42,105 nucleotides of DNA from Magnetococcales bacterium (GTDB taxonomy: Bacteria > Pseudomonadota > Magnetococcia > Magnetococcales > JADGBX01): assembly GCA_015231265.1 (NCBI GenBank), contig JADGBX010000010.1, positions 1 to 42,105 of the forward strand, written 5' to 3'. Below are positions 15,278-38,908 of this stretch, in pieces. The first letter of the stretch is position 1. Every line of letters starts with the position of its first letter. The notes under the pieces were generated by a model. That model did not search any database. It worked only from the letters and a program-made list of their open reading frames with translations, and was not told the origin of the DNA. Made by a program: the position numbers and the translations under genes.

Positions 15278-15407
15278 TCCACTGTAAAAGAGTGATCAAT
15301 CGACCCGGCACGGAACCGAGTAACAGAGAACAAACACACCGCAACCGTGACGCTCAACAATCCTGCACTATACTGTGACCAAGGTCTCTCGGGGAGATAT
15401 TAGAAGC

Positions 15408-15806
15408 ATGAAAATTTTGATTGCGGATGATGAACTCAACAACTGCACTCTACTTCAGAAGCTACTGGAACCCTACGGAATCAGTGATATTGTTGTCGAT
15501 GGCCTGGAGGCAGTCGATGCCTTTGTCATGGCGCATGCCGATGGCGAGCCCTATGAACTGATCTGCATGGACATCATGATGCCGGAGATGGATGGCAATC
15601 AGGCGGTTAAAGCGATTCGGCAAAAAGAGCAGGAACTTGGCGTCACCTCCGCAGAAGAGGTGAAGATCCTCATGGTCACCGCTCTCGACTCTCCCAAGGA
15701 TGTGATGAACTCCTTCTACAAGGCCGGCTGCAGCGACTATCTGGTTAAACCGCTGAGCAAGGACAAGGTGGATGAAAAGATGCTGGCCCTGGGCTACACC
15801 CTCTGA
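15408..15806 (+). CDS. CheY-like single-domain response regulator
   Basis: 132 residues, one REC domain: MKILIADDE pocket, Asp55 in ICMDIMMPEMDG, Thr/Ala switch in ILMVTALDS and Lys in DYLVKPLSKDKVDE. The MMPEMDGNQAVKAIR form and the insertion after it (QKEQELGVTSAEEVKI) are typical of small CheY-like proteins found with hybrid kinases. ATG 15408 is chosen because GGGGAG lies ~11 nt upstream and the protein then starts directly at the first strand; an upstream in-frame start at 15375 is possible. It lies 130 bp after the hybrid kinase and before the pseudo-CheB kinase, so it could serve either, or the chemosensory CheA. Confidence 0.9.
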   Translation: MKILIADDELNNCTLLQKLLEPYGISDIVVDGLEAVDAFVMAHADGEPYELICMDIMMPEMDGNQAVKAIRQKEQELGVTSAEEVKILMVTALDSPKDVMNSFYKAGCSDYLVKPLSKDKVDEKMLALGYTL

Positions 15807-15913: not shown

Positions 15914-18427
15914 TTGACCACCAACGGCAATCGACCGCTCCGCTTATTGATCCTTGATCCGAGTGCTATCGCGCTCGCCCTCTTCGCCCGCCATGTCGAG
16001 CGGCTATCCGATCTTGAGATAGGCAGACGCTTTCGTACCCTCGAAGAGGGATTGAAAGCACTGGAAGAGGAACGATACGATGTGGTCTGCCTCAACCCCA
16101 CCTTCCCCCCTGTTGAGATGCACGCCTTCGTCAGAGCATCCGTTCAGAAACATGCGACTCCCGTTCTTGCAACCTCCCCGGCACTGGCCGAGAATGGTGG
16201 CGGGGCCATACTCCACTTGATGGAGGCCGGAGTCTCCGATCTCTTTCTGCAAAGTGACTCCTGGATCGACGAGTCATCGGGCAACTTGGGAGAACGACTC
16301 TCCGAAGCGGTCAAACGCCTCACCTTTCTCAAACCCCTCAAGGAGATTCAGGACTCTTTGAAGAGTCGCTCTGATCGAGCGCTTCTACCGCCACCTGAAC
16401 CACAAGCAATCAATCTAATCGTTATTGGCGGTGATTTGGGCTCTTTGGAACCGTTTCGTACTCTTCTGGCAGCACTACCAGAGACGTTTCCAATCCCGAT
16501 CATCGGTATGATCCGCCTCAACGAGGCACTCCGTTCGGCACTGCCGACCTGGATTCAGCAGCACACCCCATTGACGGTGCGTCAACCGGAGAATGGGCGC
16601 GTTCCCAAGGCCGGCTCCCTCTATCTTCCACAGCCGGGAACCAGAATTAACATCGACCCCAAGGGCCAGATGCAGGTCACGACGACGGAAACCGCCTCCG
16701 ACGACTCACCGCTTGACGCCACCCTGATCAGCGTTGCTGATAACCTGAAGGCAACGGGCGCAGCCATCATGCTCTCGGGATTGGAGTCCGACGGACTCAA
16801 AGGTGCACTTGCCCTCACCAGACAAGGTGGAACTCTCTGGGCATTGGAACCGGAAACGGCTCTGGCAGAGGATCTCCCGGCATCATGTATCGGACTCGAT
16901 GTTGCAGGTCGCACCGATACGGCCACGGAACTCGCGAACGCCTTAGTCGCCCTCACCGGCATGGATCAAATCACTGAAGAGACCTCCGTAACCGCCGCAG
17001 CATCCACTGATCAGGGCGATGAGGAGGGCGCTCTATTGATGGTGGTCGAAGACAGCCCCACCCAAGCCTTCCAAATGAAACGGACCCTGGTCAATGCCGG
17101 CTTCCGTGTGGTCACGGCCAAAGATGGACAGGAGGCTCTTGAAACCCTGGTCGATCAGAAACCGACTCTGGTCCTGAGCGACATCTCCATGCCACGGATG
17201 AACGGGTACGAATTGTGCCGTGCCATCCGACGCAATCCCTCTCTCAGTGACCTCCCCGTCATGCTGGTGACCGCCCTCTCCAATCCTGCCGAAATTCTCG
17301 AAGGTCTCGATGCCGGTGCCGACAACTACCTTGTCAAACCGTGGAAGGAGGATGGCCTTCTGGCTAACGTTGCCTCCCTTTTGGAAGAGGCGGAACAGCC
17401 CGGCGGCGTGGTGCGTGACACAGGCATGACCATCCGCTTCTCCGGACGGGAGTATCACGTCTCCACCGGCAAACGACAAATTCTTGAACTTCTCCTCTCA
17501 ACCTATCAGAGTGGCGTCGAACAGGGCAAAGCGCTTCTGGACAGCCAGTTGGAGCTTCAGGTTCTCAACCAACAACTTGTCGAGCAGGCAACCCGGCTGA
17601 CAGAACTGAACGACTCTCTTCGTGAAGAGATCAAAACCAGGATCGAGACCCAACACTCCCTGGAACAGACGATGGACGAATTGAAACGGGCCAACCGCGA
17701 GTTGAGCAGTTTTGCCTACATCGTCTCCCATGATCTGAAAGCCCCCTTCCGATCCATTGGTTCACTCACCAGTTGGCTTGCTCAAGACTACGCCGATCAT
17801 CTCGACAAGGAGGGGCGGGAACTGGTCACTCTTCTGGCGAATCGCGCCGAACGGATGAACGGTCTGATCGAATCTCTGATCCAGTACACCAATGTTGGCC
17901 GAGGTGATGATAAGATTGAGGAGACCGACCTCAATCGCATTCTCAACAAGGTGATTGCCGCACTGAACGCTTCTGAAGCGTACGACTTTCACATCCCCTC
18001 ACCTCTGCCCAGGGCACAAGTCAACACCACGCGGATTACCCAGGTCTTTCACCACATTCTACATAATGCTCTACGATTCTCGGATAAGATGGACGGGCGC
18101 GTCACTATCCGCCATGAAGAGACCGATGAGAACCACATCTTCTACTTCACCGATGACGGACCAGGGATTGAACCACGCCATTTTAGTAAGATTTTCCAAA
18201 TTTTTCAGACACTACAGCCCCGCGATCAGTTCGAGACGGCCGGGGTTGGACTGGCTCTGGTCCGCAAAACCGTCGAACGCTATGGTGGAGCGATAGAGGT
18301 CGCCTCTGAACCGGGACACGGCAGCACCTTCACCGTTACACTGCCCAAGAACCCGAAACAGCACATCCCCAAGGAGTCGGAAACGACACCCACACTTCCC
18401 AACACCCGCGCCAACATCTTGTCATAA
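15914..18427 (+). CDS. Pseudo-CheB (inactive receiver + inactive methylesterase) fused to REC - HisKA - HATPase kinase
   Basis: 837 residues from TTG 15914, preferred because AAGGG lies 9 nt upstream; TTG 15872 is an alternative adding 14 residues. Residues ~10-116 have a receiver fold, but Asn61 (VVCLNPTFPP) replaces the phospho-Asp. Residues ~166-348 align along their length with the CheB encoded at 26823, sharing FP.PII, the PKAGSLYLP strand and the LSGLESDG loop. Of the catalytic triad, Ser is Asp174 (IGGDLGS for VGASTGG), His is Arg201, and only Asp293 is kept. An intact REC follows (about 372-492, Asp423 in VLSDISMPRMNG, Lys in YLVKPW), then a RQIL..LLSTY linker and coiled coil (530-590). 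HisKA has His606 in VSHDLKAP; HATPase has Asn718 and DDGPGIE. The kinase half looks active. Role inferred: a kinase docking where CheB docks. Confidence 0.88.
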   Translation: MTTNGNRPLRLLILDPSAIALALFARHVERLSDLEIGRRFRTLEEGLKALEEERYDVVCLNPTFPPVEMHAFVRASVQKHATPVLATSPALAENGGGAILHLMEAGVSDLFLQSDSWIDESSGNLGERLSEAVKRLTFLKPLKEIQDSLKSRSDRALLPPPEPQAINLIVIGGDLGSLEPFRTLLAALPETFPIPIIGMIRLNEALRSALPTWIQQHTPLTVRQPENGRVPKAGSLYLPQPGTRINIDPKGQMQVTTTETASDDSPLDATLISVADNLKATGAAIMLSGLESDGLKGALALTRQGGTLWALEPETALAEDLPASCIGLDVAGRTDTATELANALVALTGMDQITEETSVTAAASTDQGDEEGALLMVVEDSPTQAFQMKRTLVNAGFRVVTAKDGQEALETLVDQKPTLVLSDISMPRMNGYELCRAIRRNPSLSDLPVMLVTALSNPAEILEGLDAGADNYLVKPWKEDGLLANVASLLEEAEQPGGVVRDTGMTIRFSGREYHVSTGKRQILELLLSTYQSGVEQGKALLDSQLELQVLNQQLVEQATRLTELNDSLREEIKTRIETQHSLEQTMDELKRANRELSSFAYIVSHDLKAPFRSIGSLTSWLAQDYADHLDKEGRELVTLLANRAERMNGLIESLIQYTNVGRGDDKIEETDLNRILNKVIAALNASEAYDFHIPSPLPRAQVNTTRITQVFHHILHNALRFSDKMDGRVTIRHEETDENHIFYFTDDGPGIEPRHFSKIFQIFQTLQPRDQFETAGVGLALVRKTVERYGGAIEVASEPGHGSTFTVTLPKNPKQHIPKESETTPTLPNTRANILS

Positions 18428-18498
18428 TCTGCGATTGTCTTTGATGAGAGATGGGTGTAGCGTGTGAATACCCCTGTCTTTCACGTTGGAGAACGACT

Positions 18499-19287
18499 AT
18501 GGCCCCTCCGGAACCCTCCCTGGACGCTCTCATCGCAGCAGCGCAGCGTGAACAGCTCTCCCTGGATGATCAAAAGAAATTGGTAGCTGAGCTGCAACGC
18601 TCCAATGAGGAACTCAAGCAGTTCGCCTATGTCGTTTCCCACGATCTCAAAGCACCCCTGAGGGCCATAGGCTCCTTGGCACAGTGGATTGTCGAAGACT
18701 ATGCCGAGGCGCTGGACGAAGATGGGCAAGAGCAGCTCTCTCTGCTGCAATCGCGTGTCAAACGGATGGAGAACCTGATCAACGGCGTTCTCCAATACTC
18801 GCGCATCGGTCGCCTTCGGGATCAATGGGAAGAGGTGGACATGGGGCAGCTTCTCCCGGAGATCATCGATCTTCTGGCACCCCCGGAGACAATTCACGTG
18901 ACGGTTGCCGGTGATCTGCCGACCATCCAGGGCGAGAAGGTACGACTGGGACAACTGTTTCAGAATCTCCTTTCCAACGCCATCAAGTTCATGGACAAAC
19001 CCGAGGGACGGGTAACAATCTCCTGTCATCAGGAAGAGAGCATGTGGCGATTCAGCGTCGAGGACAACGGTCCCGGCATTGATGCCAAACACCACGAATC
19101 GATTTTTCAGATTTTTCACACTCTTCAAGCCAGAGACACCTTCGAGAGCACCGGAATCGGTCTCACCCTGGTCAAAAAGATCGCTGAACTGCACAACGGC
19201 ACCATCCAGGTCGACTCTTCACCCGGCAAAGGATCCCGCTTCATGGTTCTGCTTCCCCGAAGCCAGACGGCAGAAAGGCAGGAGTAA
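18499..19287 (+). CDS. Small soluble histidine kinase (HisKA - HATPase)
   Basis: 262 residues with no sensor domain. A short N-terminal helix (about 8-40) leads into HisKA with His48 in VVSHDLKAPLRAIGSL. HATPase motifs are QNLLSNAIKFMD, EDNGPGID and ESTGIGLTLVKK. It is clearly paralogous to the kinase half of the preceding pseudo-CheB fusion (same HDLKAP core, IFQIF.TLQ.RD and GRVTI stretches), suggesting local duplication. ATG 18499 has GGAGAA just upstream. Its TAA overlaps the next ATG by one base, so it is translationally coupled to an Rcp1-like receiver, its probable partner. With no input domain it presumably takes its signal from a bound protein. Confidence 0.9.
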   Translation: MAPPEPSLDALIAAAQREQLSLDDQKKLVAELQRSNEELKQFAYVVSHDLKAPLRAIGSLAQWIVEDYAEALDEDGQEQLSLLQSRVKRMENLINGVLQYSRIGRLRDQWEEVDMGQLLPEIIDLLAPPETIHVTVAGDLPTIQGEKVRLGQLFQNLLSNAIKFMDKPEGRVTISCHQEESMWRFSVEDNGPGIDAKHHESIFQIFHTLQARDTFESTGIGLTLVKKIAELHNGTIQVDSSPGKGSRFMVLLPRSQTAERQE

Positions 19288-19709
19288 TGGCAATGAACAG
19301 TACTCGTCCGATTCTACTTCTTGAAGATGACCGTGTTGACGCCATGACGGTCAAACGGGCTCTCAAGGCGATCAAAGTGAACAATCCCCTTGTCACCGTA
19401 AGCAATGGTGAAGAGGCTCTTGAGTGGCTCAATCATGAGGAGAACGAGATCCCCTGCATCACTTTGCTGGATCTCAACATGCCCAGAATGAACGGCATTG
19501 AGTTTCTTGAAGCGGTCAAGAACCATAAGGAGTTTCGCTCCATACCGGTGATCGTTCTGACAACCTCCAAAGATGAACTGGACCGGATCAAGAGCTTCAA
19601 TCTCGGTGCTGCGGGATATATGGTCAAACCTGTCGATTATGTTCAATTCGTCGAAGTGATGCGGACCATCAACATGTACTGGACATTAAGCGAGCTTCCT
19701 TCGCAGTGA
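19287..19709 (+). CDS. Rcp1-like receiver-only response regulator
   Basis: 140 residues, one REC domain. The pocket is LLLEDDRVDAMTVKRAL, phospho-acceptor Asp62 is in ITLLDLNMPRMNGIEFL, the switch region is VIVLTTSKDE and the Lys is in GYMVKPVDYVQF. This DLNMPRMNG form is the one usually encoded next to phytochrome-like HDLKAP kinases. The ATG at 19287 overlaps the kinase stop (TAATG); ATG 19293 would have better spacing from GGAG. Direct coupling to the upstream kinase makes a cognate pair nearly certain. No output domain is present. It ends 13 bp before cheR, so it may also connect to the chemosensory genes. Confidence 0.92.
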   Translation: MAMNSTRPILLLEDDRVDAMTVKRALKAIKVNNPLVTVSNGEEALEWLNHEENEIPCITLLDLNMPRMNGIEFLEAVKNHKEFRSIPVIVLTTSKDELDRIKSFNLGAAGYMVKPVDYVQFVEVMRTINMYWTLSELPSQ

Positions 19710-19722
19710 GCACTCTACTCTC

Positions 19723-21366
19723 ATGACTCCTCCTGAACTTGACGCTTTCTTCACACTGGTTACAGAAAAGACCGGCCTGGTTACACAGCCGGAAGACCGC
19801 ATCACCCTTCAGGAGAAGATACGACAGCGGATGACGTCACTGCATCTCTCCTCCCTGACACATTACACCACCCTGCTCAAGTGCGATGACATTACCAGCC
19901 GCAAGGAGTGGCGGGAGCTGGTGCTTCTGTTAACCACAGGGGAGAGTTACTTTTTTCGGGACAGTGGCCAGATCACCCTTCTGCGAACACGCATTCTGCC
20001 GGAACTGATTCAATCCCGGCAACACGATCGAACCCTGAACATCTGGAGCGCAGGCTGTTCAACCGGTGAAGAGCCCTACACCCTTGCAATTATTCTGGAT
20101 CAGCTTCTCCCCTTCTGGGATGAGTGGCAGGTGACGATTCTCGGCACGGACATCAATGAAGCTTCGTTGGAGAAAGCATGTTCCGGCCACTATAGCCCCT
20201 GGTCGTTTCGCAAGGTGCCTCCGGCCATTATCAACCGCTTCTTCAACAAGGAGAAGAGTGGCGACTATACGCTGGAAACGCGCATCCGTCAGATGGTCAC
20301 CTTCAAGAAGATGAATCTGATTGAAGATGCCTTGCCCGACCCGCTGTTATCCACCATGGGACTGGACCTGATCGTCTGTCGCAACGTCTTCATCTACTTT
20401 GATCAAGAGACCGTCCAGAAGCTGGTGGGGAAGTTCTCGGGATACCTGCGGCCCAACGGCTATCTGATGACCGGCCATGCGGAGCTGTCCACGAAGGAAC
20501 CCGCGGGACTTCTGAGCCGAATCCACCCTGAATCTGTGATCTATCAGAAACCCTCTGGAATTCTCTCCAGCGCAGTGCCAAACGCTTTTCAAGAGAGCAC
20601 ACCCTCCCCAACCATTACCACGACATCTCTACCCTCCAAAATCGACCAGCCTTCACACTCCACTCGACGGAATGTGACACCACCTACCTCCCCATTCATA
20701 CCCCCCTTCCAGGAAATGACACGTAAACCCAGAGCGCTCGGCGACACACCATCCATCGCATCCATCAAGTCGCCAGCGTCTTCTGTCGACAAACTACCAA
20801 CGCTCTCACCACAGGGAGATCACTCCTCTCGTGACGACCACGGCAATTCCGACACATCATTGCCACTTGAGGAGATGAAAACAGCCTTCTCGAAACAGGA
20901 TCACCGTGCCGTCATCCAACACGGCGAAATAGTAACGACGACCGATCTCTCCCCATCCGATCAGTTCGACTACTGGTATCTATTAGCCAGAAGTCATGCC
21001 AATGTAGGGCAGAGACAGCACGCCCTCGATGCCTGCGAAGAAGCACGGGCACTCCAGGAGTTTCATGCCGGGCCGCTGTTCCTCATCGCCTGCATTCGAC
21101 TGGAATCAGACGGACACCGAGACAGTGACACCGTGAAACAGGTGGAGAAACTCCTCAATCAGGTCCTCTATCTGGATTCGGATCACATCCCAGCCTACCT
21201 GGAGCTGGCAGCTATTCATCAACAGAGAGGTGATGACAAGCGGGCACGAAAATACCGCACAACCGCCCGCGACATCCTCACATCCATGGATCCGAAAGCA
21301 CGCGTTGAAGGTTTCGAGGAGTGGAGTGTGCAGGAGTTGATGTCGCAGGTGGATACGCTGCTCTGA
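19723..21366 (+). CDS. cheR: CheR-type chemoreceptor methyltransferase with C-terminal TPR-like region
   Basis: 547 residues. An N-terminal helical domain (1-75) precedes the S-adenosylmethionine-dependent methyltransferase (about 75-280), with TGESYFFRD, SAGCSTGEEPYTLA (cofactor loop), GTDINEASLEKA and LIVCRNVFIYFD all present. It methylates glutamates on the cytoplasmic helices of chemoreceptors. A Pro/Ser/Thr-rich linker (about 285-385) leads to TPR-like helices (about 405-525: YWYLLARSHANVGQRQHALDA, AYLELAAIHQQRGDDKRARKY). CheR-TPR fusions are typical of Wsp-class and related systems (WspC). It follows the Rcp1-like gene by 13 bp and opens the chemosensory core, which continues with CheW, the receptor, CheA and CheB. 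Confidence 0.95.
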   Translation: MTPPELDAFFTLVTEKTGLVTQPEDRITLQEKIRQRMTSLHLSSLTHYTTLLKCDDITSRKEWRELVLLLTTGESYFFRDSGQITLLRTRILPELIQSRQHDRTLNIWSAGCSTGEEPYTLAIILDQLLPFWDEWQVTILGTDINEASLEKACSGHYSPWSFRKVPPAIINRFFNKEKSGDYTLETRIRQMVTFKKMNLIEDALPDPLLSTMGLDLIVCRNVFIYFDQETVQKLVGKFSGYLRPNGYLMTGHAELSTKEPAGLLSRIHPESVIYQKPSGILSSAVPNAFQESTPSPTITTTSLPSKIDQPSHSTRRNVTPPTSPFIPPFQEMTRKPRALGDTPSIASIKSPASSVDKLPTLSPQGDHSSRDDHGNSDTSLPLEEMKTAFSKQDHRAVIQHGEIVTTTDLSPSDQFDYWYLLARSHANVGQRQHALDACEEARALQEFHAGPLFLIACIRLESDGHRDSDTVKQVEKLLNQVLYLDSDHIPAYLELAAIHQQRGDDKRARKYRTTARDILTSMDPKARVEGFEEWSVQELMSQVDTLL

Positions 21367-21518
21367 CCCCTCATCCACCGCAGCCTCCATCGCGACAATA
21401 AACAACGAAAAGTGCTGATCGCACCATATTTCAATTGGGTTCACCATCGAAATTTGCTTCACTGTAGTGTGTGGGTCATGGAATAGCACCTGTCTCCAGC
21501 AGCGAATCATGGATCATC

Positions 21519-22613
21519 ATGACAGATGAGAATAGCGAAACCCCGGGCAGTGATGCCATCGATACCGGAAGCACCATGATGCAGATGGAGGGTTTCCCCT
21601 GCCTGATCTTCAGACTGCTGGATAAGCTTTACGGGATCGACACCCAGTGTGTTCGTGAGATCGTCCGCCTCCCGGAAGTGACTCCGGTGGAGTCCGCTCC
21701 CAGACACGTTGTGGGTGTGATCAATCTACGTGGTCGTGTCATTCCGATCATCGATCTCAACCTGCGTCTCGGCAGACGTCCGGAACGCTACCGACTCTCC
21801 GATGCCATCCTTGTTATTGAGGTCAGTGAGCACCTCTTCGGCGTGATTATCAGTGAAGTGAGAGAGGTACGCTTTCTCGGCGACACTGATATCGACCCCA
21901 CACCGATTCTGACCGAGCAGGAGAACGGCAACAGCATCGGCCGGGATGTAGCGCGGGTGGATGACGAAATGGTGTTGATCATTCACCAAGACCGCCTGCT
22001 GCTTTCGGGAATTCCGGACGCGCTCCACGATATCGATGAAGAGGAGTCTGCCGACTCCTTGAGTGAACGGCGACTCTTCAACCCTGAAGCGAGCGACGAA
22101 GAGCGCACCATTTTCCAGGAGCGGGCCAAACGACTGCTCTCGATTCTCGACAGTCATGAATTGAGCGGACTGGTCTCTCTGGCCATCGTCCAGCTTCAAG
22201 ATGAACTGCTGGGCGTGATGCTCGACAGGGTACGAGGGTTTACACAGGTGCGCGAGATGACGCCGATTCCCTGTACACCACAGCACATCGTCGGCAACAT
22301 CAATCAACGGGGAGATATCCTGACCCTGGTCGATATAACAGGCACCCTCGATATTCCATCCCTGTCGAATCGAAAACCTGACAAGGCAATGGTGGTCAAT
22401 CTGGAAGAGATGACCGTCGGTTTGATGATCCATAATGTTCTGGATGTGATCCATATCCTCCCGGAGCAGATCGTTAAATCACCCATCGCCTCCAGCGCCT
22501 TGAAACGTGAACACACCCAGGGAGCACTCCCCTATGGCGACAGAATGCTGAGTGTTCTCAATCTGGAGCAGATCCTTCAAGGAGAGACTCTGGAAGTTGA
22601 TGAACGCATTTGA
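21519..22613 (+). CDS. Tandem CheW coupling protein (two CheW domains in one chain)
   Basis: 364 residues from ATG 21519; a GTG at 21471 would add 16 unconserved residues. The first CheW domain (about 25-165) reads CLIFRLLDKLYGIDTQCVREIVR, HVVGVINLRGRVIPIIDLNLRLG and AILVIEVSEHLFGVIISEV. The second (about 220-355) reads SLAIVQLQDELLGVMLDRVRGF, HIVGNINQRGDILTLVDITG, AMVVNLEEMTVGLMIHNV and MLSVLNLEQIL. CheW bridges CheA to receptors in the array. Most loci encode single-domain CheW, and Wsp loci have two separate genes (wspB, wspD). The fusion fixes a 1:1 ratio and could bridge neighbouring array units (inference). A 152-bp gap separates it from cheR. Confidence 0.93.
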   Translation: MTDENSETPGSDAIDTGSTMMQMEGFPCLIFRLLDKLYGIDTQCVREIVRLPEVTPVESAPRHVVGVINLRGRVIPIIDLNLRLGRRPERYRLSDAILVIEVSEHLFGVIISEVREVRFLGDTDIDPTPILTEQENGNSIGRDVARVDDEMVLIIHQDRLLLSGIPDALHDIDEEESADSLSERRLFNPEASDEERTIFQERAKRLLSILDSHELSGLVSLAIVQLQDELLGVMLDRVRGFTQVREMTPIPCTPQHIVGNINQRGDILTLVDITGTLDIPSLSNRKPDKAMVVNLEEMTVGLMIHNVLDVIHILPEQIVKSPIASSALKREHTQGALPYGDRMLSVLNLEQILQGETLEVDERI

Positions 22614-22739: not shown

Positions 22740-24182
22740 ATGAACCAGACCGCTCTTTCTTTCCGACTCAAGACCAATTTTGCTCTGGTCATCCTTCTGA
22801 TGCTTATTCTCGGCGTCATCTCCATATTCGTGATGCAGAATCTCTCCAGTCTCACCGTCAAGCTCCATAAACACCCGTACACGGTGAGCACCGCCGCCCT
22901 ACGCATTGATGGCAACATCCTGAAGATTCAGACCGCCATCGAACAGGTGGTCAAAGCCAAGAGCGTTGCCGAAGTGCAATCGTTCAAACAGCGTATTGAG
23001 ATGATTGAGCAGCAGGTCCACTCTGATTTTTCAATCATCAAGGAGCGCTTTCTCGGCGACAAACAGCGGGTTGTTTCCGCCCAGGAAGCGTTCAAAGGGT
23101 GGAAGCCCACCTGGGATGAGATCATTGCCTTGATGGCGACTGGCCAGCAGGAGAAAGCGCTGACCATCGTCAACACCGATCGCGGTGCTCAAGCCGACGG
23201 CCTTGACGCCGTGATGAATGAGTTTATCGAGTTTGCAGACGGCAAAGCCAACGCTTTCCTGAACAATGCCATCGAAGAAGAGAAGCAGTCGGTGATGATC
23301 ATCTCAATCCTGATCGGTATCGCTGTTCTGGTGGGGTGGTGGTTTGCCCGAGCGGCAACCCAGTCTCTTGGTGAGATTGTCTCGGTTATCTCCACCTCTT
23401 CCGCCCAAATCGCCGCCACCATCAACCAACAGGAACGCATCACGGCCCAACAAACCTCTTCAATCAATGAAACCAATACCACCATGGAAGAGTTGGGCGC
23501 ATCGGCCCGTCAATCGGCTGAACAGTCCGAATCAGCGGCAGACAACGCCCAGAAGGCGCTGCAACTGGCAGAAAACGGTGTCCAGTGGGTGGAGGAAATG
23601 ATGGAAAGCATGAAGGGGACTGAAGAGCGGGTCGAGGCCATCGCCCGGCAGATTCTCTCACTCAGCGAACAGACCAGTCAGATCAGCTCCATCACCAACA
23701 CTGTCACCGACTTTGCCAATGAGACCAAAATGTTGGCGATGAATGCCGCCGTGGAGGCGGTTCGGGCCGGTGAACACGGCAAGGGGTTCTCGGTTCTGTC
23801 GGTGGAGATTCGCAAACTGGCTGATGAGAGCAAACGCTCGGCAGAACGCATCAACGGTCTGGTGGAACAGATTCAAAAAGCGACCAACACCACCGTCATG
23901 GTCACTGAAGAGGGCACGAAAACCGTCAACAAAGGCATGGAGATCGCCCGCAATACCTCCGAGACATTCAATCAGGTTACGCGCTCGGTCAACTCCGCCT
24001 CCCAAAGCGCCCAACAGATCTCCATGAATGTCCGTCAGCAGGCCGTCGCCGTCAAGCAGGTGGTAGATGCCATGCAACTGCTCAATACCGGCTCCAAGGA
24101 GAATGCCTCGGGTATCTCTCAAATCAAATCCGGCATACAACTGCTCAAGGAGACCTCCCAGAAACTGCAAAGCATGATCTGA
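22740..24182 (+). CDS. Methyl-accepting chemotaxis protein without an evident HAMP domain
   Basis: 480 residues. TM1 (about 11-33) and TM2 (about 185-203) bracket a periplasmic ~150-residue all-helical domain of the four-helix-bundle kind. The cytoplasmic part (204-480) goes straight into Ser/Gln/Ala-rich coiled-coil heptads; I see no HAMP consensus between TM2 and the signalling helices. The hairpin tip near 328-362 (ETKMLAMNAAVEAVRAGE, GKGFSVLSVEIRKLADES) is well conserved and binds CheA and CheW. The protein ends QKLQSMI with no NWETF-type CheR-tethering pentapeptide. It is the only receptor in the locus, which matches the WspA position between CheW and CheA genes. Confidence 0.95.
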   Translation: MNQTALSFRLKTNFALVILLMLILGVISIFVMQNLSSLTVKLHKHPYTVSTAALRIDGNILKIQTAIEQVVKAKSVAEVQSFKQRIEMIEQQVHSDFSIIKERFLGDKQRVVSAQEAFKGWKPTWDEIIALMATGQQEKALTIVNTDRGAQADGLDAVMNEFIEFADGKANAFLNNAIEEEKQSVMIISILIGIAVLVGWWFARAATQSLGEIVSVISTSSAQIAATINQQERITAQQTSSINETNTTMEELGASARQSAEQSESAADNAQKALQLAENGVQWVEEMMESMKGTEERVEAIARQILSLSEQTSQISSITNTVTDFANETKMLAMNAAVEAVRAGEHGKGFSVLSVEIRKLADESKRSAERINGLVEQIQKATNTTVMVTEEGTKTVNKGMEIARNTSETFNQVTRSVNSASQSAQQISMNVRQQAVAVKQVVDAMQLLNTGSKENASGISQIKSGIQLLKETSQKLQSMI

Positions 24183-24240: not shown

Positions 24241-26826
24241 ATGATTGAAGATCTCGAACTTCGTGAGCTGTTCAAAGCCGAGAGCGACGAGCATCTGACC
24301 AAACTCGACAATGGCCTCCTCCATCTGGAGAAACACCCTGACGACACCTCGGAATTGTCGGAGCTGTTTCGCGAAGCGCACAGCCTGAAAGGGGCAGCGC
24401 GCATGCTGGGCGTTGCCGATGTGGAGACTCTGGCTCACCATTTCGAGGATGTTCTGGGTGCCGCTTCACGGGGTGATCACACCTTTACGCCCGAGCTGAT
24501 AGACCGGTTGATCAATGGTTTGGATGAAGTTCGCAAACTGGTGGATGAAGCGGTCAGCGGTACACCTGCCAATGTCTCGGTGGTGGATGCACTGGCGCGG
24601 CTCAAGGGAGAAGCCCCGCCTCTTTCTCCACATTCAGCACCCAGCGAACAACAACCAGAAACAGCTCCAGCGGCAACACTTCAACCAGAACCTGCACCCC
24701 TACCCTCGCCTCCCTTTGAACCAGAGACTGCACACACCTCGCAACCAGCGGTTTCATCGGATGCAACGACTCCGGTACCCACTTCAATAGAAAATGCAAT
24801 CCCGACAACGCCTCACGAACCGAAACCGGAGATCTCTTCCGAGCCTGAAAAAGAGCGCGCCACCTCCTCTTCCGCAACGCCCCCAGATCAGAAGCCGCCC
24901 TCTGCGTTGGAACGTGAAACGACTGCCCCTTCTCCAAAAAACCATATCTCCGAACCAATGCAATCGGTTCAGGAACAGCCAGCTAGCCAGAAACCAGCAC
25001 CCAAAGAGGAGTCCGGTTCCGACTCCCACAAAGTTGGCACCATCCGTGTCAAACCCAGGCAGCTCGATCAACTGATGAACCATGCAGCCGAGTTGACAGT
25101 GGTTCGAACCCGGCTCAAACGGCGACTCACGGAGATTGAGAGTCTGGTGAGCTGCTGGGATGAACTGCAACGGGTTCTGGCCGAACAGTCGATCCATCAA
25201 GAAGTGAGTGAGCATGGAGCGGACGGGGAAGCGGACCTCTGGCGTTCACCGATGGATCGCCTTGGTTCCAGCATGCGTACTCTGCGGGCCTCCCTGTTTG
25301 AAGATGAAGCGAGCATGGATATCGTTGCCAGGGAACTGGAGGAGGGGATCCGCAATCTGCGGCTGTTGCCGCTCTCCACCCTGTTCAACCTCTTTCCCCG
25401 ACTGGTCAGAGATCTCTCACGGCAACTGGTCAAAAGCGGAGGCGTGGAAAAACGGGCTGAACTGATCGTGGAAGGGGGGGAAACCACTGCGGACAAACAG
25501 ATCATCGAGGAGATGAAGGATCCACTGATGCACCTGATCCGTAACAGCATGGATCATGGGCTGGAGTTTCCCGATACCCGTGAAGCGCTGGGAAAGAATC
25601 CCGTAGGCACCGTTACACTGCGAGCCTCCCGCACCTCTACCCACGTCATCATTGAAGTGGGCGACGATGGTCGGGGGCTCAATCTGGATGATATCCGCAA
25701 AACCGCAATCAAACGACGTCTCTACACTGAGAAGGAGCTTGCCACCTGGACATCGGGACAGGTCCGCAATCTCATCTTCACCCCTGGCTTCTCCACCAGC
25801 CCGCTGGTGACCGATCTCTCGGGTCGTGGTGTCGGACTGGATGCCGTCCGCACCAATGTCGAGAACCTCAAGGGAACCATCTCCGTCGATTCCACTCCTG
25901 ATGCCGGTAGTCTGTTCACGATCCGTCTGCCCATTACGCTGGCGACAACGCCTGTTTTTATTGTGCGCATCGACGACCAACAGTTCGCCATTCCCATCGA
26001 CTACATTCAGAACGTGCGTCGTGTCCTGCCTGCTGATCTCTTCACACTCGAAGGGCACTCCACGATTACCATCAACGATGAACCCATTTCAGTAGCAGAT
26101 CTTTCCGATCTGTTAGAACTGCCGCAAAACCCCTCCAAATCGGAAGAAGAGCGTTGGAAACAGGCGCGACCCTGCATCATCCTGGTGGCCGGAGGCGACC
26201 GTATCGGGATATTCGTCGATGATCTGGTGGATGAACTGGAAGTGGTTCTTAAACCCCACGGCTCCATCCTTCGGCGTGTCCGAAACGTCTCGGGATCGAC
26301 CATCCTTGGCAGTGGAGAGGTGTGTACCGTTCTTAACCCCCAGGATCTGATCCGATCGATTCAAAATCGCCACATCAGCGCCAGTTCAGTCATGACACCC
26401 GCCCATGAAGTGGGAACAAATGGCCCCACTTCTCCCATAGAGGATGACGGATCCATCCAGGAACGTCGCACAATCCTCCTGGTGGAGGACTCCATCACGA
26501 CCCGTACCCAGGAGAAAAGGATTCTGGAAGCGGCGGGATACGATGTGATCACCGCCGTTGATGGTCTGGATGCTTTGCAGAAAATGGGCTCATTGGAACT
26601 GGACGCCGTAGTTTCGGACATACAGATGCCCAATCTTGACGGCTTGTCTTTGTGTGAGAGAATACGCCAAAATAGTACCTACGAGGAGTTACCCATCATT
26701 CTGGTAACGTCACTCTCCACGGAAGACGACAAGAGACGCGGAATGGAAGCCGGAGCAAATGCTTATATTTCAAAGACATCTTTTGAACAAAAAGGTCTAT
26801 TGGATACGCTGAGGAGGCTGGTATGA
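24241..26826 (+). CDS. cheA: CheA histidine kinase with C-terminal receiver (CheA-REC, WspE/FrzE-like)
   Basis: 861 residues. The Hpt domain (1-110) carries phospho-acceptor His47 in REAHSLKGAARML. A Pro/Ser/Glu-rich linker (about 120-260) has no visible P2 domain. The dimerisation domain starts near 262 (VKPRQLDQLMNHAAEL). The catalytic ATPase has HLIRNSMDHGLE (near 430), GDDGRGLN (near 475), TDLSGRGVGLD and a G-rich tail. A CheW-like regulatory domain (about 565-715) and a REC domain (741-861, Asp793 in VVSDIQMPNLDG) follow. In CheA-REC proteins the attached receiver acts as output, sink or feedback. Its stop overlaps the cheB start (ATGA), giving translational coupling. Confidence 0.96.
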   Translation: MIEDLELRELFKAESDEHLTKLDNGLLHLEKHPDDTSELSELFREAHSLKGAARMLGVADVETLAHHFEDVLGAASRGDHTFTPELIDRLINGLDEVRKLVDEAVSGTPANVSVVDALARLKGEAPPLSPHSAPSEQQPETAPAATLQPEPAPLPSPPFEPETAHTSQPAVSSDATTPVPTSIENAIPTTPHEPKPEISSEPEKERATSSSATPPDQKPPSALERETTAPSPKNHISEPMQSVQEQPASQKPAPKEESGSDSHKVGTIRVKPRQLDQLMNHAAELTVVRTRLKRRLTEIESLVSCWDELQRVLAEQSIHQEVSEHGADGEADLWRSPMDRLGSSMRTLRASLFEDEASMDIVARELEEGIRNLRLLPLSTLFNLFPRLVRDLSRQLVKSGGVEKRAELIVEGGETTADKQIIEEMKDPLMHLIRNSMDHGLEFPDTREALGKNPVGTVTLRASRTSTHVIIEVGDDGRGLNLDDIRKTAIKRRLYTEKELATWTSGQVRNLIFTPGFSTSPLVTDLSGRGVGLDAVRTNVENLKGTISVDSTPDAGSLFTIRLPITLATTPVFIVRIDDQQFAIPIDYIQNVRRVLPADLFTLEGHSTITINDEPISVADLSDLLELPQNPSKSEEERWKQARPCIILVAGGDRIGIFVDDLVDELEVVLKPHGSILRRVRNVSGSTILGSGEVCTVLNPQDLIRSIQNRHISASSVMTPAHEVGTNGPTSPIEDDGSIQERRTILLVEDSITTRTQEKRILEAAGYDVITAVDGLDALQKMGSLELDAVVSDIQMPNLDGLSLCERIRQNSTYEELPIILVTSLSTEDDKRRGMEAGANAYISKTSFEQKGLLDTLRRLV

Positions 26827-27995
26827 TCCGCGTCCTACTCGTCGATGATTCACCAGTAGCGATTCTGGTCCTGAAAAAAATGCTGCAACGTGCCACCGAT
26901 ATTGAAGTGGTCGGCACGGCCTCCAATGGTCAAATGGCCATGGAGATGCTGCCGGTGCTCAAACCCGACGTCATGTGCACCGATCTGCACATGCCGAAAA
27001 TGGATGGACTCACGCTCACCCGACAGGTGATGAAGTCCCACCCCCTGCCGATTCTGGTCATCAGCATTTCGGTTCAAAGCCACGATGATCACAACGTCTT
27101 CGAGCTTCTCGAAGCAGGCGCCATTGATGTCTTCCCAAAACCACAAGGCGGGCTTTCCGAAGCGTCATCTGGGATTGCCGATGAGTTGATCAGCAAACTG
27201 CGTGTCTTGTCGGGTGTCGTACCGATTCGACGTCACACGACTCGTTTGAAAACACCTTCCTTTTCACAAAGTGCAACTGCTGGCACCGAACAATCACAGC
27301 CCAAAGCCTCAACATCATCACCCGTTTCCCAACAACCGGGATCCATCCCCCCTCTCACTGAGATGACCCCCTCGGCTTTCTCCGCCGGTGGGATTGACAC
27401 CTCAACGTATCGCGTCGTCGTTGTTGGAGCATCAACGGGTGGACCTCAGGCGCTGAAAACCTTGTTTGCCGATCTACCTGAGGATTTCCCTCTACCGATT
27501 ATTACCGTACAGCATATCAGCGTCGGTTTTCTCAATGAGCTGGTCAACTGGATGAATAGCGCGTGCACTCTGACCGTAAAAATAGCCGTTCTGGGTGAGC
27601 GCCCTCAGCCTGGAACGATCTATTTCCCACCAGAAGACACCCACCTTATCATTGATGAACACGGCTTGTTCGCCAGTATCGACGATGAGCAACTCAGCAT
27701 CTACCATCTGCCCCCTACCAACCACCGACCCTCCGTAGACGTTCTGTTTCACTCGGTTGCCCGGTACTACAAGCGCCACGCTGCAGCCATCATTCTTACC
27801 GGCATGGGGGCAGATGGTGTGGACGGTATGCGTGCTATCTGTAAAGAGGGTGGGTTTACTGTGGCCCAGAATGAGGAGAGTTCCGTCGTCTTCGGCATGC
27901 CGCAGAAAGCGATTGAAGCAAATGTTGCCAAAGTGGTCTGTAGCATCGAGACCATGACGGGCACACTCATTGAAAATCTGAAAAGTGGCCATTGA
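26823..27995 (+). CDS. cheB: CheB receptor methylesterase response regulator
   Basis: 390 residues. The REC domain (1-115) has DDSP, Asp54 in MCTDLHMPKMDG and Lys in DVFPKPQGG. A Ser/Thr/Pro-rich linker (about 135-195) precedes the methylesterase (about 196-388), with all three catalytic residues: Ser204 in VGASTGGPQA, His231 in TVQHIS and Asp331 in LTGMGADGVDG. It demethylates or deamidates receptor glutamates, opposing CheR, and is activated when CheA phosphorylates the REC domain. It overlaps cheA by four bases. It is the intact counterpart of the pseudo-CheB portion of the 15914 fusion and a useful internal reference for which residues are lost there. Confidence 0.97.
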   Translation: MIRVLLVDDSPVAILVLKKMLQRATDIEVVGTASNGQMAMEMLPVLKPDVMCTDLHMPKMDGLTLTRQVMKSHPLPILVISISVQSHDDHNVFELLEAGAIDVFPKPQGGLSEASSGIADELISKLRVLSGVVPIRRHTTRLKTPSFSQSATAGTEQSQPKASTSSPVSQQPGSIPPLTEMTPSAFSAGGIDTSTYRVVVVGASTGGPQALKTLFADLPEDFPLPIITVQHISVGFLNELVNWMNSACTLTVKIAVLGERPQPGTIYFPPEDTHLIIDEHGLFASIDDEQLSIYHLPPTNHRPSVDVLFHSVARYYKRHAAAIILTGMGADGVDGMRAICKEGGFTVAQNEESSVVFGMPQKAIEANVAKVVCSIETMTGTLIENLKSGH

Positions 27996-28076: not shown

Positions 28077-29756
28077 ATGGTTCAAACCATGGCAAGAAAA
28101 CAGATTCTCATCGTTGAAGACAGTGCGATTCAGCGGGTGATGTTGCAACGCCTTCTGACCGAGGCGGGCTATCAGGTGGAGGCGGCTCGTGATGGTGTCG
28201 AAGGGTTGAATCAAGCCCGGTCGTCTCACCCTGATCTCGTCATCAGTGATATCAACATGCCCAACATGGATGGGTATGAGATGTGTCAGGCCATGCGCCA
28301 GGACACGGACCTTGCCGCCACACCGGTCATGATTCTCACCAGTCTCGATGATCCTCGGGAGGTGCTACGCGGTATCACGGCCGGTGCCGACAACTACGTT
28401 ACCAAACCCTACGACAGCGACAATCTGCTGGATCGTATCGCCCGTCTTCTGGAGGAGGCCTCTACTCCCCCTGAGGACGATGACGACGATCCAACCATCA
28501 TGCTTGGCAACGAACGGCATGTAATCTCTGCCGGACGCCGTCAGATACTGACTCTACTTCTCTCCACATACGAAAACGCCGTTCAACGCAATCAGGAGTT
28601 GTTGCAGACGCAACTCGAATTGAAGGTTCTCAACGAACAGCTTGAAGAGAAAGTCGCAGAGCGCACTCAACAGTTGGAAGCGGCCAATCGTGCCAAGTTG
28701 ATGTTCATCAACAATATGAGTCACGAGCTGCGTACTCCCCTCAACGCCATCATCGGCCTGACCGATCTGACAATGGGATCTGAGGATCTAACAGATGATC
28801 ACAAATCTCATCTCTCCATCGTCCACCAATCCGCAGAGTCCCTTCTCCTGCTCATTAACAGTCTCCTCGATTTTGCCAAACTGGAAACCCATGAACTGAC
28901 CACACGCAAAACGGTTTTCCATCTTCGTAAGCATCTCGAGAAAGCACTGGCTCCGGAAATGGAAAAAGCGGTTGCCAAAGGACTCTTCTTTCTCTGCCGA
29001 ATCAGTCAAGATGTTCCAGATGCGTTGATCGGCGACGCCTCTCGGCTGGCCTCCATTCTGACACAGCTCACCTCAAACGGTGTGAAGTTCACCGATTCCG
29101 GACACATTATCGTCACGATTGTCCCCATTGAGGTTCTCAATCGCTCAGTTCTCATCCGTTTTTCTGTGGATGATACCGGCTGCGGCATACCTGAAGAACG
29201 GAAAGAGACTATCTTCTCCAGTTTCATGCAGGGAGACGGCACCTCAACCCGTCATCACGGTGGAACCGGAATTGGTCTGACATTGGCTCAACGCCTCGCC
29301 AACCTTTTGGGGGGCAATCTGGGATTCGTCAGTGTCAACGGCATGGGAAGCACCTTCCATCTCGACCTGCGCATCGAAACCGATCCATCTGTCGATACCC
29401 GGAACAGCCATGAAGATGCCTTTAACGAAGAAACCCTGCTTATCGGTGGCATGATCGGTGCCGATGAAACGATGGAACAGACCCTGGAGAGTGAAGATTC
29501 TACAGCCGCCATCAGTGTTGACACTCTCCTTGCACGCCTGAATAACGCCCTCAACGCCTTGGAGAGAGGGGCCGTAGAGGTGGCTGAATCGGAAACGATA
29601 CGGCTGAAACGCTCTACGCTTCCTGAAGGCACCGTCACTGACCTGCGCACGCATCTCTTCAGACTGGTTCTCAGTTTGAGAAAACGCAACATCGAAGAGT
29701 CGAAGCAGCAGTTCATCACCCTCCTTACCTCACTCCAGCAGAACACCGACACCTGA
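28077..29756 (+). CDS. REC - HisKA - HATPase kinase with Hpt-like tail lacking His
   Basis: 559 residues (ATG 28077; ATG 28089 also possible). REC (about 8-125) has Asp58 in LVISDINMPNMDG and Lys in NYVTKPYD. The linker PTIMLGNERHVISAGRRQIL and LLLSTYENAVQRNQELL is the same module as in the pseudo-CheB kinase. A coiled coil leads to HisKA with His216 in NNMSHELRTPLN, then HATPase (DDTGCGIPEE, GGTGIGLTLA). The last ~85 residues look like an Hpt helical bundle (LLARLNNALNALERGAVEVAE) but have no His at the expected place. It holds the position where a Wsp locus has the WspR diguanylate cyclase. It is therefore the likely output: a kinase gated by CheA-dependent phosphorylation of its own receiver (inference). 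Confidence 0.9.
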   Translation: MVQTMARKQILIVEDSAIQRVMLQRLLTEAGYQVEAARDGVEGLNQARSSHPDLVISDINMPNMDGYEMCQAMRQDTDLAATPVMILTSLDDPREVLRGITAGADNYVTKPYDSDNLLDRIARLLEEASTPPEDDDDDPTIMLGNERHVISAGRRQILTLLLSTYENAVQRNQELLQTQLELKVLNEQLEEKVAERTQQLEAANRAKLMFINNMSHELRTPLNAIIGLTDLTMGSEDLTDDHKSHLSIVHQSAESLLLLINSLLDFAKLETHELTTRKTVFHLRKHLEKALAPEMEKAVAKGLFFLCRISQDVPDALIGDASRLASILTQLTSNGVKFTDSGHIIVTIVPIEVLNRSVLIRFSVDDTGCGIPEERKETIFSSFMQGDGTSTRHHGGTGIGLTLAQRLANLLGGNLGFVSVNGMGSTFHLDLRIETDPSVDTRNSHEDAFNEETLLIGGMIGADETMEQTLESEDSTAAISVDTLLARLNNALNALERGAVEVAESETIRLKRSTLPEGTVTDLRTHLFRLVLSLRKRNIEESKQQFITLLTSLQQNTDT

Positions 29757-35221: not shown

Positions 35222-38200
35222 TTATTGTGATTTGTTCTCCAATGGTGCCGTCGGTGAGGCTGAGCCTCTTTTTGCCTTTGAGATAACCCGGGTGTATTGA
35301 CGGGCAAGTTTCTGACCTGCCTCAATCTGAGATCCCGACATATCCTGGCTGAGCAACTGGAGATTTCTCAAGGCTTTATTATCTCCTTGAGCTGCCGCCT
35401 GTGAGTACCAGGCATACGCCTTGATCAGGTTCTGAGGCACCCCTTTTCCATCCTCATACATCCAGCCCAGATTGTTTTGTGACTTGATATCACCCTGTTG
35501 GGCAGCCAAGGCATAGAGCTTCGCCGCCATTCGCAGATTCTTCTTGACGCCACGCCCCTCTTCATACATCCATCCCAGATTGCGCTGAGCATTGACGTTG
35601 TTCTGCTTTGCAGCCTGACTGTACCAGTAGTTGGCCTTTTTGTAGCTCTGGGCAATACCGCCCTGCCCTTTTTCGAACATGGAGCCCAAATTGTCCTGTG
35701 CTCCGGCGTGTCCTTTTTTTGCCGCTTGTAGAAACCACTTGTACGCCAGGGTTTTATCTCGAGCAACTCCCTCGCCCTTAAGGTACATGACACCCAAGCG
35801 ATTCTGCGCTTCGACACTCCCTTGGTTAGCAGCCTTCTGGAACCATTTGGCAGCTTGGAAATAGTCCTTGGGAACACCTTGACCGACATAGTACATCATG
35901 GCAACGATCAACTGCGCCTTCAGATAGCCCTGAGTTGCAGAGGCGGAGTACCAACGAAACGCTTGCACGGAGTCCCGGCGTATTCCCTCACCCTTATCGT
36001 AGGCAATAGCCGCTCGGAACTGCCCTTCCATATGCCCCTGCTCAGCAGCCTTAAAAAACCACAAAGCAGCAGAGTTTCTATCCTTCTCGACACCAATGCC
36101 CTTGTTGAGGAACATGCCATAGCGGTATTGAGCATCAGCGATCCCCTTTTCTGCTGCTCTGAGCATATAACGCGCTGATTTCACATTGTCACGTGCCGTC
36201 CCCTTGCCTAGGAGAAAAGCATTAGCCAGTGCGTATTGTGACTGTGCGATATCCTGCTCTGCCGCGAGAAGATGCCACTGTAGCGCTTCAGTATCACTCT
36301 GTTTCTTACCCTGACCGGTCTGGAAGGCATGGCCCATTTTGTACTGTGCCTGGGCAACACCCTTCTGAGCGGCTTTCTCGAACCACGTCAGCGCTTCCGC
36401 TTTAAGCTTGGGATCCTTGGAAGACTCCAACAACAGCCCCAGTTCCACCTGTGCTTGCGGATTGTTGGCTTCAGCAGCTCTCCGAAACCACTTGGCTGCC
36501 GTCTCCAGGTCGATTGGTGCCCCTTCACCGGTTTTATAGGCAATACCAACACGATACTGAGCATTGGGAATGTTGAGCTCTGCCGCTTTTTTGTACCATG
36601 AGATCGCCTGCGTCAAGTTCTGCTTGATCCCGGTACCGGACTCCAGCCGTTCACCGACCTGCATCATCGCCTTGGCGTCACCCTGCTGGGCTTTGAGTTT
36701 CAGCGTGTCAAATTCGCGGTTTTGACGCTCCTCTCGCGTCATGACGGTCTGCGGCTTCTGGGATTCGGAGACACTCCAGAGAGCATAGCCGGCCCCACCT
36801 ACCAACAGGAGAGTCGCTGCCATCATCGCCATACGGGCCTTTGGGTTGACCAGTTTGCTCTCATCTCTCAGAGAGAAGGCCAACTCGCCTTCCTCATTAC
36901 CGCTATCGACCTCAACGGCATGCAGCCACTCTTCGATGTTTTGTGGCCGGTCTGTTTCCACGACCGCAAGGGCAAGGTCGATTGCTTTCAACAGCGATGG
37001 AGAGTAACGCCCTTCACCAATCTCTTGCGCAGAGACCAGAGGATCGGGCTGATTGCGCATCACGGCATTGCTTCGCTGTGGCGCACCTACCGGTTTTCTG
37101 CCGCTGATACAACGGTACATCACAGCGCCGAGAGAGTAGATATCGGTCCACGGTCCCTGGCGGTTCGCCTCTTCGAAATACTGCTCCATAGGCGCATAGC
37201 TAGGTGTAAGCATGGCGGTCATGGAACCATCCGTCCCACCCTTGCGACGCGCCGATCCAAAATCCAGCAGCACAGGAGTCCCATCCTTGACCCGGATAAA
37301 GATATTATCGGGTTTGATATCACGATGGATGAAATCAGCATGGTGCAACACCTGAATACCCTGCAACATGGGCATCATGATCGCAAGAAGCTCTTTTTCA
37401 TCAAGCGTTTTCTTGCGTTTAAGAATATTGCCGAGATCCTCACCCTCTTCATACTCCATCGCCATATAGGCTGTGTTGAACTCTTCGAAGAAGGTTGCAA
37501 CACGTACCAGACTGGAGTGCTTGAACTGAGCGAGTGTCCTGGCCTCATTCAAGAACCGTTCACGACCTTGGACGAACTGCTCTTCCAGATCGGGCGCTTT
37601 GGGATGAATCGAGTGATCCGGCCGGCGCAGAGCAAGCTGCGTCGGCAAATACTCTTTGATGGCAACATGGTTATCGAGACGTGTATCATGCGCTTTATAT
37701 GTCAGACCAAAACCACCCTGCCCCAGCACTTTCTCGATCTTGTACCACATCAACATGTGGCCTTCAGGCAGAGCATCATGATGGACCTTACCGGTCACCG
37801 AGGCTGCCGGACTAGCGGTTGCAGGCACCTCACCGGTATCAGAGCCATCGGCCGCGGCGGGGTTGAGAACCGTCGCTCCATCCTCGTCATCATCCCCGCT
37901 CTCCTGACCGGCATTGGGATTGAGCACTGTCGCCCCATCCTCATCGTCGTCACCCTCCATCAGTCCGGCAGCGGGATTGAGCACTGTCGCTCCATCCTCA
38001 TCATCCTGGACCTTCTGGGCGGAAGGGTTCAGGACCGTCGCTCCATCTTCGTCGTCACTGTCGTCACTTGAGGGTATTCCAGAATCCAAAGAGGGGTTGA
38101 GCACCGTAGCGCCATCCTCTTCTTCATCGTCTTGATTGATCTCTGAGCTTGGGGAGTCGGACGTGGACGACGCGCCCTCTTCAAGAGGAGGGAGAGGAGG

Positions 38201-38908
38201 GAGAGAAGGTAGCTGCTTCTCATCTTGCGAGGGACCCGAGGTGAACTCCGACCCGAAGCTCATGCCCAGAAGCTCATCGGCATCATCCAGATCCAACTCA
38301 CCTCGACCACCTGCTCCCGGCACATCCTTAACAGGTTCCTGGCCGAACAGTTCTTCCGTACCATCATCTGCACTCTTCAGAGCCTCCTGTTCCGGAGAAG
38401 GACTCTCTGAGGAGGAATCCTCGATTTCCAACGCCAAGGCAGTCTCTTCCTTGGGATCTGAGGGAGTCTCGATCTCCAACGCCAAGGCAGTCTCTTCCTT
38501 GGGAGCAGAAGAACCGGCTGCATCCATGTTGACACTGCTCTCTTCAACAGGATCAGCAGAGGGCTCGAAGTTCAGCTCCAGGACAGTCTCTTCTTCTTCC
38601 AAACCGGATACAGCTGGAATGGCAGACTCTTTTGATACCTGTTTATCATCAGCATCCTTGAGAGAGGTAAAAGAGTCTGATGGTTCGAACGTCAAAACCT
38701 CCAACTCCTCTGCCTGATCATCGGTATCTTTTCGAGACGTATCGATCTCTTCGAAAGAGTCGATAGGCTCAAAGGAGATTGTCTCGATTTCCTTCTCATC
38801 CTTCTCTTTTTTGGCAGAATCATCCGCCTCATCAGTTGAAGGGATGAATTCCAGCTCGGTCTCGGCTTCGGAATCAGTAAAAGGATTATCGTCGTTCCGT
38901 TTCGTCAC
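35222..38908 (-). CDS. Membrane Ser/Thr protein kinase with acidic repeat region and C-terminal Sel1 repeats
   Basis: 1228 residues from GTG 38908 (GGGG 7 nt upstream). Residues 1-380 are acidic and low-complexity, with FEP.DSF-type repeats and five DGATVLNP repeats (Thr268, 291, 308, 327, 345). The eukaryotic-type kinase domain (about 388-668) is complete: GQGGFG (P-loop), Lys418 in VAIKEY, HRDIKPDN (Asp530, Asn535) and LLDFGSAR (Asp549). A TM helix (693-712) precedes about twelve Sel1 repeats and one partial repeat (735-1190, pattern A..YK.G.G....A..W..KAA), probably periplasmic and protein-binding. The kinase would sense envelope state through the Sel1 domain and phosphorylate cytoplasmic targets, perhaps its own repeats (inference). 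No phosphatase or FHA-domain gene is adjacent. Confidence 0.93.
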   Translation of the reverse strand: MTKRNDDNPFTDSEAETELEFIPSTDEADDSAKKEKDEKEIETISFEPIDSFEEIDTSRKDTDDQAEELEVLTFEPSDSFTSLKDADDKQVSKESAIPAVSGLEEEETVLELNFEPSADPVEESSVNMDAAGSSAPKEETALALEIETPSDPKEETALALEIEDSSSESPSPEQEALKSADDGTEELFGQEPVKDVPGAGGRGELDLDDADELLGMSFGSEFTSGPSQDEKQLPSLPPLPPLEEGASSTSDSPSSEINQDDEEEDGATVLNPSLDSGIPSSDDSDDEDGATVLNPSAQKVQDDEDGATVLNPAAGLMEGDDDEDGATVLNPNAGQESGDDDEDGATVLNPAAADGSDTGEVPATASPAASVTGKVHHDALPEGHMLMWYKIEKVLGQGGFGLTYKAHDTRLDNHVAIKEYLPTQLALRRPDHSIHPKAPDLEEQFVQGRERFLNEARTLAQFKHSSLVRVATFFEEFNTAYMAMEYEEGEDLGNILKRKKTLDEKELLAIMMPMLQGIQVLHHADFIHRDIKPDNIFIRVKDGTPVLLDFGSARRKGGTDGSMTAMLTPSYAPMEQYFEEANRQGPWTDIYSLGAVMYRCISGRKPVGAPQRSNAVMRNQPDPLVSAQEIGEGRYSPSLLKAIDLALAVVETDRPQNIEEWLHAVEVDSGNEEGELAFSLRDESKLVNPKARMAMMAATLLLVGGAGYALWSVSESQKPQTVMTREERQNREFDTLKLKAQQGDAKAMMQVGERLESGTGIKQNLTQAISWYKKAAELNIPNAQYRVGIAYKTGEGAPIDLETAAKWFRRAAEANNPQAQVELGLLLESSKDPKLKAEALTWFEKAAQKGVAQAQYKMGHAFQTGQGKKQSDTEALQWHLLAAEQDIAQSQYALANAFLLGKGTARDNVKSARYMLRAAEKGIADAQYRYGMFLNKGIGVEKDRNSAALWFFKAAEQGHMEGQFRAAIAYDKGEGIRRDSVQAFRWYSASATQGYLKAQLIVAMMYYVGQGVPKDYFQAAKWFQKAANQGSVEAQNRLGVMYLKGEGVARDKTLAYKWFLQAAKKGHAGAQDNLGSMFEKGQGGIAQSYKKANYWYSQAAKQNNVNAQRNLGWMYEEGRGVKKNLRMAAKLYALAAQQGDIKSQNNLGWMYEDGKGVPQNLIKAYAWYSQAAAQGDNKALRNLQLLSQDMSGSQIEAGQKLARQYTRVISKAKRGSASPTAPLENKSQ
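37853..38128 (-). repeat. Five degenerate DNA repeats encoding DGATVLNP units
   Basis: Within the kinase gene, five units encode (D/E)DEDGATVLNP with variable 9-15-residue spacers. The core DNA (GGGTTGAGCACCGTCGCTCC-like on the plus strand) recurs with third-base changes. This argues for old duplication kept by selection on the peptide rather than recent slippage. Confidence 0.8.

Follow-up and report, generated by a model that had tools for sequence, protein, structure and literature searches.

The locus described here raises the question of what becomes of a CheB-like protein once its methylesterase residues are gone and a histidine kinase has been attached to it. The window, which is the whole stretch of 42,105 nucleotides analyzed (GCA_015231265.1, contig JADGBX010000010.1, positions 1 to 42,105), comes from a member of the Magnetococcales, a group with many magnet-sensing species. 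An 837-residue pseudo-CheB-REC-histidine kinase is encoded at 15914..18427 (+), the strand of all window features below unless stated otherwise, and is supported by an intact ORF, Pfam domains and full-length orthologues of 39-41% identity. The frame opens with TTG at 15914, with AAGGG 9 bases upstream of the start. Pfam assigned CheB_methylest (PF01339, over the Pfam cut-off) to residues 169-343 with E 7e-27, followed by Response_reg (376-486), HisKA (597-660) and HATPase_c (705-813).

The original prediction held that the first ~350 residues keep the complete CheB layout, and both alignment and modeling bore this out. Residues 9-331 aligned with the full-length CheB structures 1a2o and 6ymz in phmmer searches against the PDB. 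The same two structures were the top PDB matches to the predicted structure of the N-terminal 360 residues (TM 0.79-0.86; Foldseek match to 1a2o with E 1.8e-20 and TM 0.79/0.82). For the AlphaFold model of residues 1-360 (pLDDT 89, pTM 0.88) the alignment took in true CheBs, and for a model of the entire chain it was limited to members of the family; full-length CheB was the best PDB match for both. The structure check on residues 1-350 thus returned a CheB fold and not the absence of one. Salmonella CheB (1a2o, PF01339) shares with these residues its receiver-linker-esterase layout and fold. Unlike CheB, the fused protein lacks the nucleophile and the phospho-Asp, is joined to a REC-HK and scores below the NCBIfam CheB subfamily cut-offs (136 and 134 bits against 293 and 342).

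The first receiver (residues 9-130, 15938..16303), recognized by alignment to 1a2o and by its predicted fold, is too degenerate to reach the Pfam threshold. The methylesterase-like domain (residues 167-347, 16412..16954) was delimited by Pfam, by the residue table and by a Foldseek match to 3sft (TM 0.87). Alignment to Salmonella CheB placed Asn61 (16094-16096) at phospho-Asp D56, Asp174 (16433-16435) at the nucleophile S164, Arg201 (16514-16516) at H190 and the retained Asp293 (16790-16792) at D286, so that every substitution named beforehand, and the one triad residue said to remain, was correct. The window copy has lost Thr165 and Met283 (Salmonella numbering) too, both of which adjoin the active site. 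Judged from the residues involved, the Asp-Arg pair that replaces Ser-His could form a salt bridge.

The expectation that an intact receiver and kinase follow the CheB-like half held as well, with all motif residues present. The second receiver, REC2 (residues 374-490, 17033..17383, Pfam E 2.8e-29), has Asp423 (17180-17182), Thr453 and Lys475, and its key columns are invariant in the family. HisKA (17702..17893) carries the phospho-acceptor His606 (17729-17731) in an HDLK motif that is likewise invariant, and HATPase_c (residues 705-813, 18026..18352, E 2e-22) has its N and G boxes (N718, DDGPG from 747, GVGLAL from 777). The kinase is of HisKA type, and Pfam found no PAS domain in the fused protein.

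We then asked how this protein is distributed. The family was present in 14 of 48 Magnetococcales genomes, 13 of which carry the fused kinase, some copies being in pieces at contig ends. The 14th carrier (G018) has a pseudo-CheB-REC protein without kinase (L048:8948-10696), which ends shortly past REC2; the neighboring genes HK2 and REC140, described below, are absent from that genome. The catalytic Ser was lost in 12 of the 13 readable N-termini: ten have Gly there, G006 has Thr and the window copy Asp. Only G009 has kept it, along with His and Asp. Twelve of the 13 retain His, which is changed to Arg in the window copy alone; all 13 retain the equivalent of Asp286, and only three the phospho-Asp of the first receiver. 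Comparison across the family thus indicates that Ser loss is not a local mutation. The possibility raised at the outset, that homologues might retain Ser and His and leave the window copy as a local change, is realized in G009, but the family-wide loss argues against it. Outside the order, a survey with strict thresholds, which diverged fusions may have escaped, yielded no such fusion in about 351 other genomes sampled of the same phylum (matches were CheB alone or stop-separated CheB and REC) or in 24 Nitrospinota genomes, and in the Desulfomonile phylum (247 genomes) the only fusions among the matches examined were CheB-REC-GGDEF proteins.

The fused gene sits in a chemosensory cluster of largely conserved order: PAS-HK-REC, REC143, pseudo-CheB-REC-HK, HK2, REC140, CheR-TPR, CheW2, MCP, CheA-REC, CheB, REC-HK. 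In the window, the single-domain response regulator REC143 (15375..15806; Pfam, syntenic) lies upstream. Downstream are the second histidine kinase HK2 (18451..19287; Pfam), of the same kinase family and 45% identical to the kinase half, and REC140 (19287..19709), a single-domain CheY-like regulator. Pfam identified the remainder as a CheR-TPR methyltransferase (19723..21366), a double CheW (21471..22613, two stretches), a chemoreceptor with 4HB and MCPsignal domains (22740..24182), CheA with a C-terminal REC (24241..26826), an intact CheB with full triad (26823..27995, E 5e-59) and a separate REC-histidine kinase (28077..29756). A canonical cluster-type CheB was found in all carriers except G009 and G041, whose assemblies miss that part of the cluster; the G009 contig stops within CheA, and the remainder of its cluster did not turn up elsewhere in the assembly. 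Elsewhere in the order, G002 has two intact tandem CheB genes behind CheA and two chemoreceptor genes ahead of it (L055:7656-9825), and G020 has an open frame of more than 3100 codons that ends in CheA domains and a REC, an unusually long CheA (L051:10512-20000). The window also encodes, at 35222-38908 (-), a eukaryote-like Ser/Thr protein kinase domain with at least 11 Sel1 repeats.

The genomes with REC140 are the 13 that have the fused kinase and no others; the remaining 35 Magnetococcales genomes lack it, and HK2-grade matches follow the same pattern. The three genes are adjacent, so that this co-occurrence may stem from one or a few events and not from 13 independent ones. The fused kinase and HK2 nearly agree at DHp positions +8, +11, +12, +15 and +16, where the cluster REC-HK differs, and in other phyla, too, HK2-like kinases are encoded next to REC140-like regulators (L086, L108, L113). 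The shared distribution of the fused kinase, HK2 and REC140 suggests REC140 as the output of the fused kinase and a putative phospho-acceptor common to both kinases.

The two halves of the protein had different phylogenetic affinities. In the CheB tree, the pseudo-CheBs formed one clade (SH-aLRT 99) within a group that holds the cluster-type CheBs (100) and stands apart from the other CheBs of Magnetococcales; the position of the clade relative to cluster CheBs and to a few CheBs of other phyla was poorly fixed, and the window copy, on a very long branch (3.34), was of unsure placement. The triad-keeping G009 member branched first in the clade, on a short branch. By this phylogeny, the pseudo-CheB half derives from a CheB of the kind found in its own cluster. 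The kinase half grouped with HK2-like kinases of many phyla and not with the REC-HK beside the true CheB, in a tree that is a limited test given that outside kinases were chosen by similarity to the query; on its topology, the kinase half came from a source other than the cluster's REC-HK. Duplication of the whole adjacent CheB and REC-HK pair was rejected as an origin, the kinase half belonging to a different kinase family than 28077-29756. In some genomes (G004 and several of family f13) the CheR-CheW-MCP-CheA-CheB core is found without the fused protein, so the fused gene seems to have been added to it.

With the structure and the family well supported, we infer a function for the protein. 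We lean towards a scenario in which a CheB duplicate of the cluster type lost its esterase chemistry, was fused to a REC-HK and now forms a phospho-relay branch point with a docking or regulatory half. The cluster CheA would phosphorylate Asp423 of REC2, and phosphorylated REC2 would tune the attached kinase, much as CheA3 acts on CheS3 in Rhodospirillum centenum. The fused kinase and HK2 would in turn phosphorylate the CheY-like REC140 as output, which would connect the receptor array to another output than usual. The pseudo-CheB half would dock or regulate without catalysis, and its old CheB binding surfaces may place the kinase beside CheA, the receptors or CheB itself. In R. centenum, CheA3 phosphorylates a receiver of the hybrid kinase CheS3, which phosphorylates CheY3 (PMC3868531), and by analogy this system is a tested precedent for the proposed wiring from CheA through a hybrid kinase to CheY. 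CheS3, like the fused protein, has two N-terminal receivers, one of them without Asp, and both proteins have CheA-REC and a single-domain CheY as partners in their che cluster (PMC3868531). In contrast, CheS3 is a REC-REC-PAS-HWE kinase, with no CheB part described in the portion of that report consulted (PMC3868531).

The idea of a repurposed CheB scaffold that brings a kinase to the array, CheR or CheA fared unevenly. The non-catalytic CheB fold, the loss of Ser, the maintained domain and the intact kinase support it, but its recruitment part does not gain from the cluster: the C-terminal docking pentapeptide is absent from the cluster's chemoreceptors, as read from their C-termini, and Pfam recognized no P2 domain in the cluster CheA. 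Pentapeptide-independent CheBs are reported (PMC7698151).

Other roles for the CheB-like half can be considered. It may act as an input domain, the dead CheB fold reading array state (methylation sites or CheA occupancy) and signaling to the kinase, which we regard as unlikely; if true, an adaptation enzyme would have been turned into a sensor of adaptation. It is also doubtful, if conceivable, that the pseudo-CheB half regulates the true CheB and not the kinase, by binding it or by competing for receptor or CheA sites, with kinase state setting methylation. Such a role would fit the intact CheB encoded in the same cluster, the retention of the fold and of most of the Asp/His framework, and the maintenance of the domain seen in dN/dS. 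However, the usual description of CheB is of an enzyme that works as a monomer, and the first receiver, the part of CheB that meets CheA, is without its phospho-Asp in 10 of 13 members.

For the esterase-like domain, dN/dS was 0.06-0.31 in closely related pairs (genus g17, G016/G039), compared with 0.11-0.26 for the true CheBs that these genomes have in the cluster, values that are rough owing to well-diverged synonymous sites in some pairs. In the best-sampled genus, the dead esterase-like domain is under purifying selection, like true CheB. It is rather improbable that the 350 N-terminal residues are now only a decaying spacer, left from a CheB gene that was joined to a kinase. The stepwise loss of catalytic residues, with the window copy most diverged, would agree with such decay, but dN/dS is far below 1 in lineages already without Ser, the fold is predicted to be intact, and no complete member has a frameshift or stop. 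In the window lineage itself, both N-terminal domains share 28-32% identity with relatives, and REC2 and kinase 51-57%; the N-terminal half has evolved fast, and local decay of the window copy's N-terminal domains may have occurred. Residual chemistry in some members (weak esterase, deamidase or other) is very improbable, given that ten of 13 members have Gly, and the window copy Asp, in place of the nucleophile and that Met283 is lost in 13 of 13 and Thr165 in 12 of 13, even with Ser, His and Asp in G009, Thr in G006, His in 12 of 13 and Asp in all.

The relay reading that we prefer draws on known parts. Chemosensory clusters with alternative cellular functions typically have CheR-TPR and REC-HK regulators, about 40% of their regulators being response regulators fused to HisKA/HATPase (PMC3447774). 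The window cluster shares CheR-TPR and REC-HK with them, and no CheB-REC-HK fusion is among theirs in the part of that survey consulted (PMC3447774). The CheB-REC-GGDEF fusions of the Desulfomonile phylum (678-687 aa; L187:889-2922 (-), L188:1501-3534 (+), L189:889-2949 (-)) likewise have CheB and an output module connected by a second receiver and lie behind CheA in a CheW-MCP-CheA cluster. They differ from the fused protein in their intact receivers and Ser/His/Asp, their diguanylate cyclase output and their Wsp-like logic. Each holds CheB plus a diguanylate cyclase regulator in a single polypeptide, like WspF joined to WspR, and no second CheB was seen near them in the stretches read. From these sequences, fusion of CheB to an output regulator has arisen more than once. 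The same genome as the window encodes a CheB-CheR-PAS-PAS protein of about 1047 residues (L054:9248-12391, contig C424), which also sets a CheB domain in a large multidomain signaling protein; it differs in having no receiver, a fused CheR and no HisKA/HATPase in the stretch scanned. The open-licence literature searched held no description of a dead or pseudoenzyme CheB fused to a kinase, or of a conserved pseudo-CheB. The link from chemosensory to two-component signaling had been put forward as an architecture not known to be described; the link itself is known from CheS3 (PMC3868531), and the exact domain architecture was not found in the literature consulted. The parts are known; as a combination, pseudo-CheB-REC-HK seems not to have been reported before.

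The family and the CheB-REC-GGDEF fusions, taken together, suggest that chemosensory arrays are recurrently rewired by joining CheB to an output module. For the Magnetococcales, it gives a concrete prediction for a kinase-regulator set formed by the fused kinase, HK2 and REC140. The family also offers a series, from the intact triad of G009 through losses of Ser only to the loss of Ser and His in the window copy, plus the kinase-less form of G018, and with these stages one could test directly how an enzyme of adaptation becomes a scaffold or sensor.
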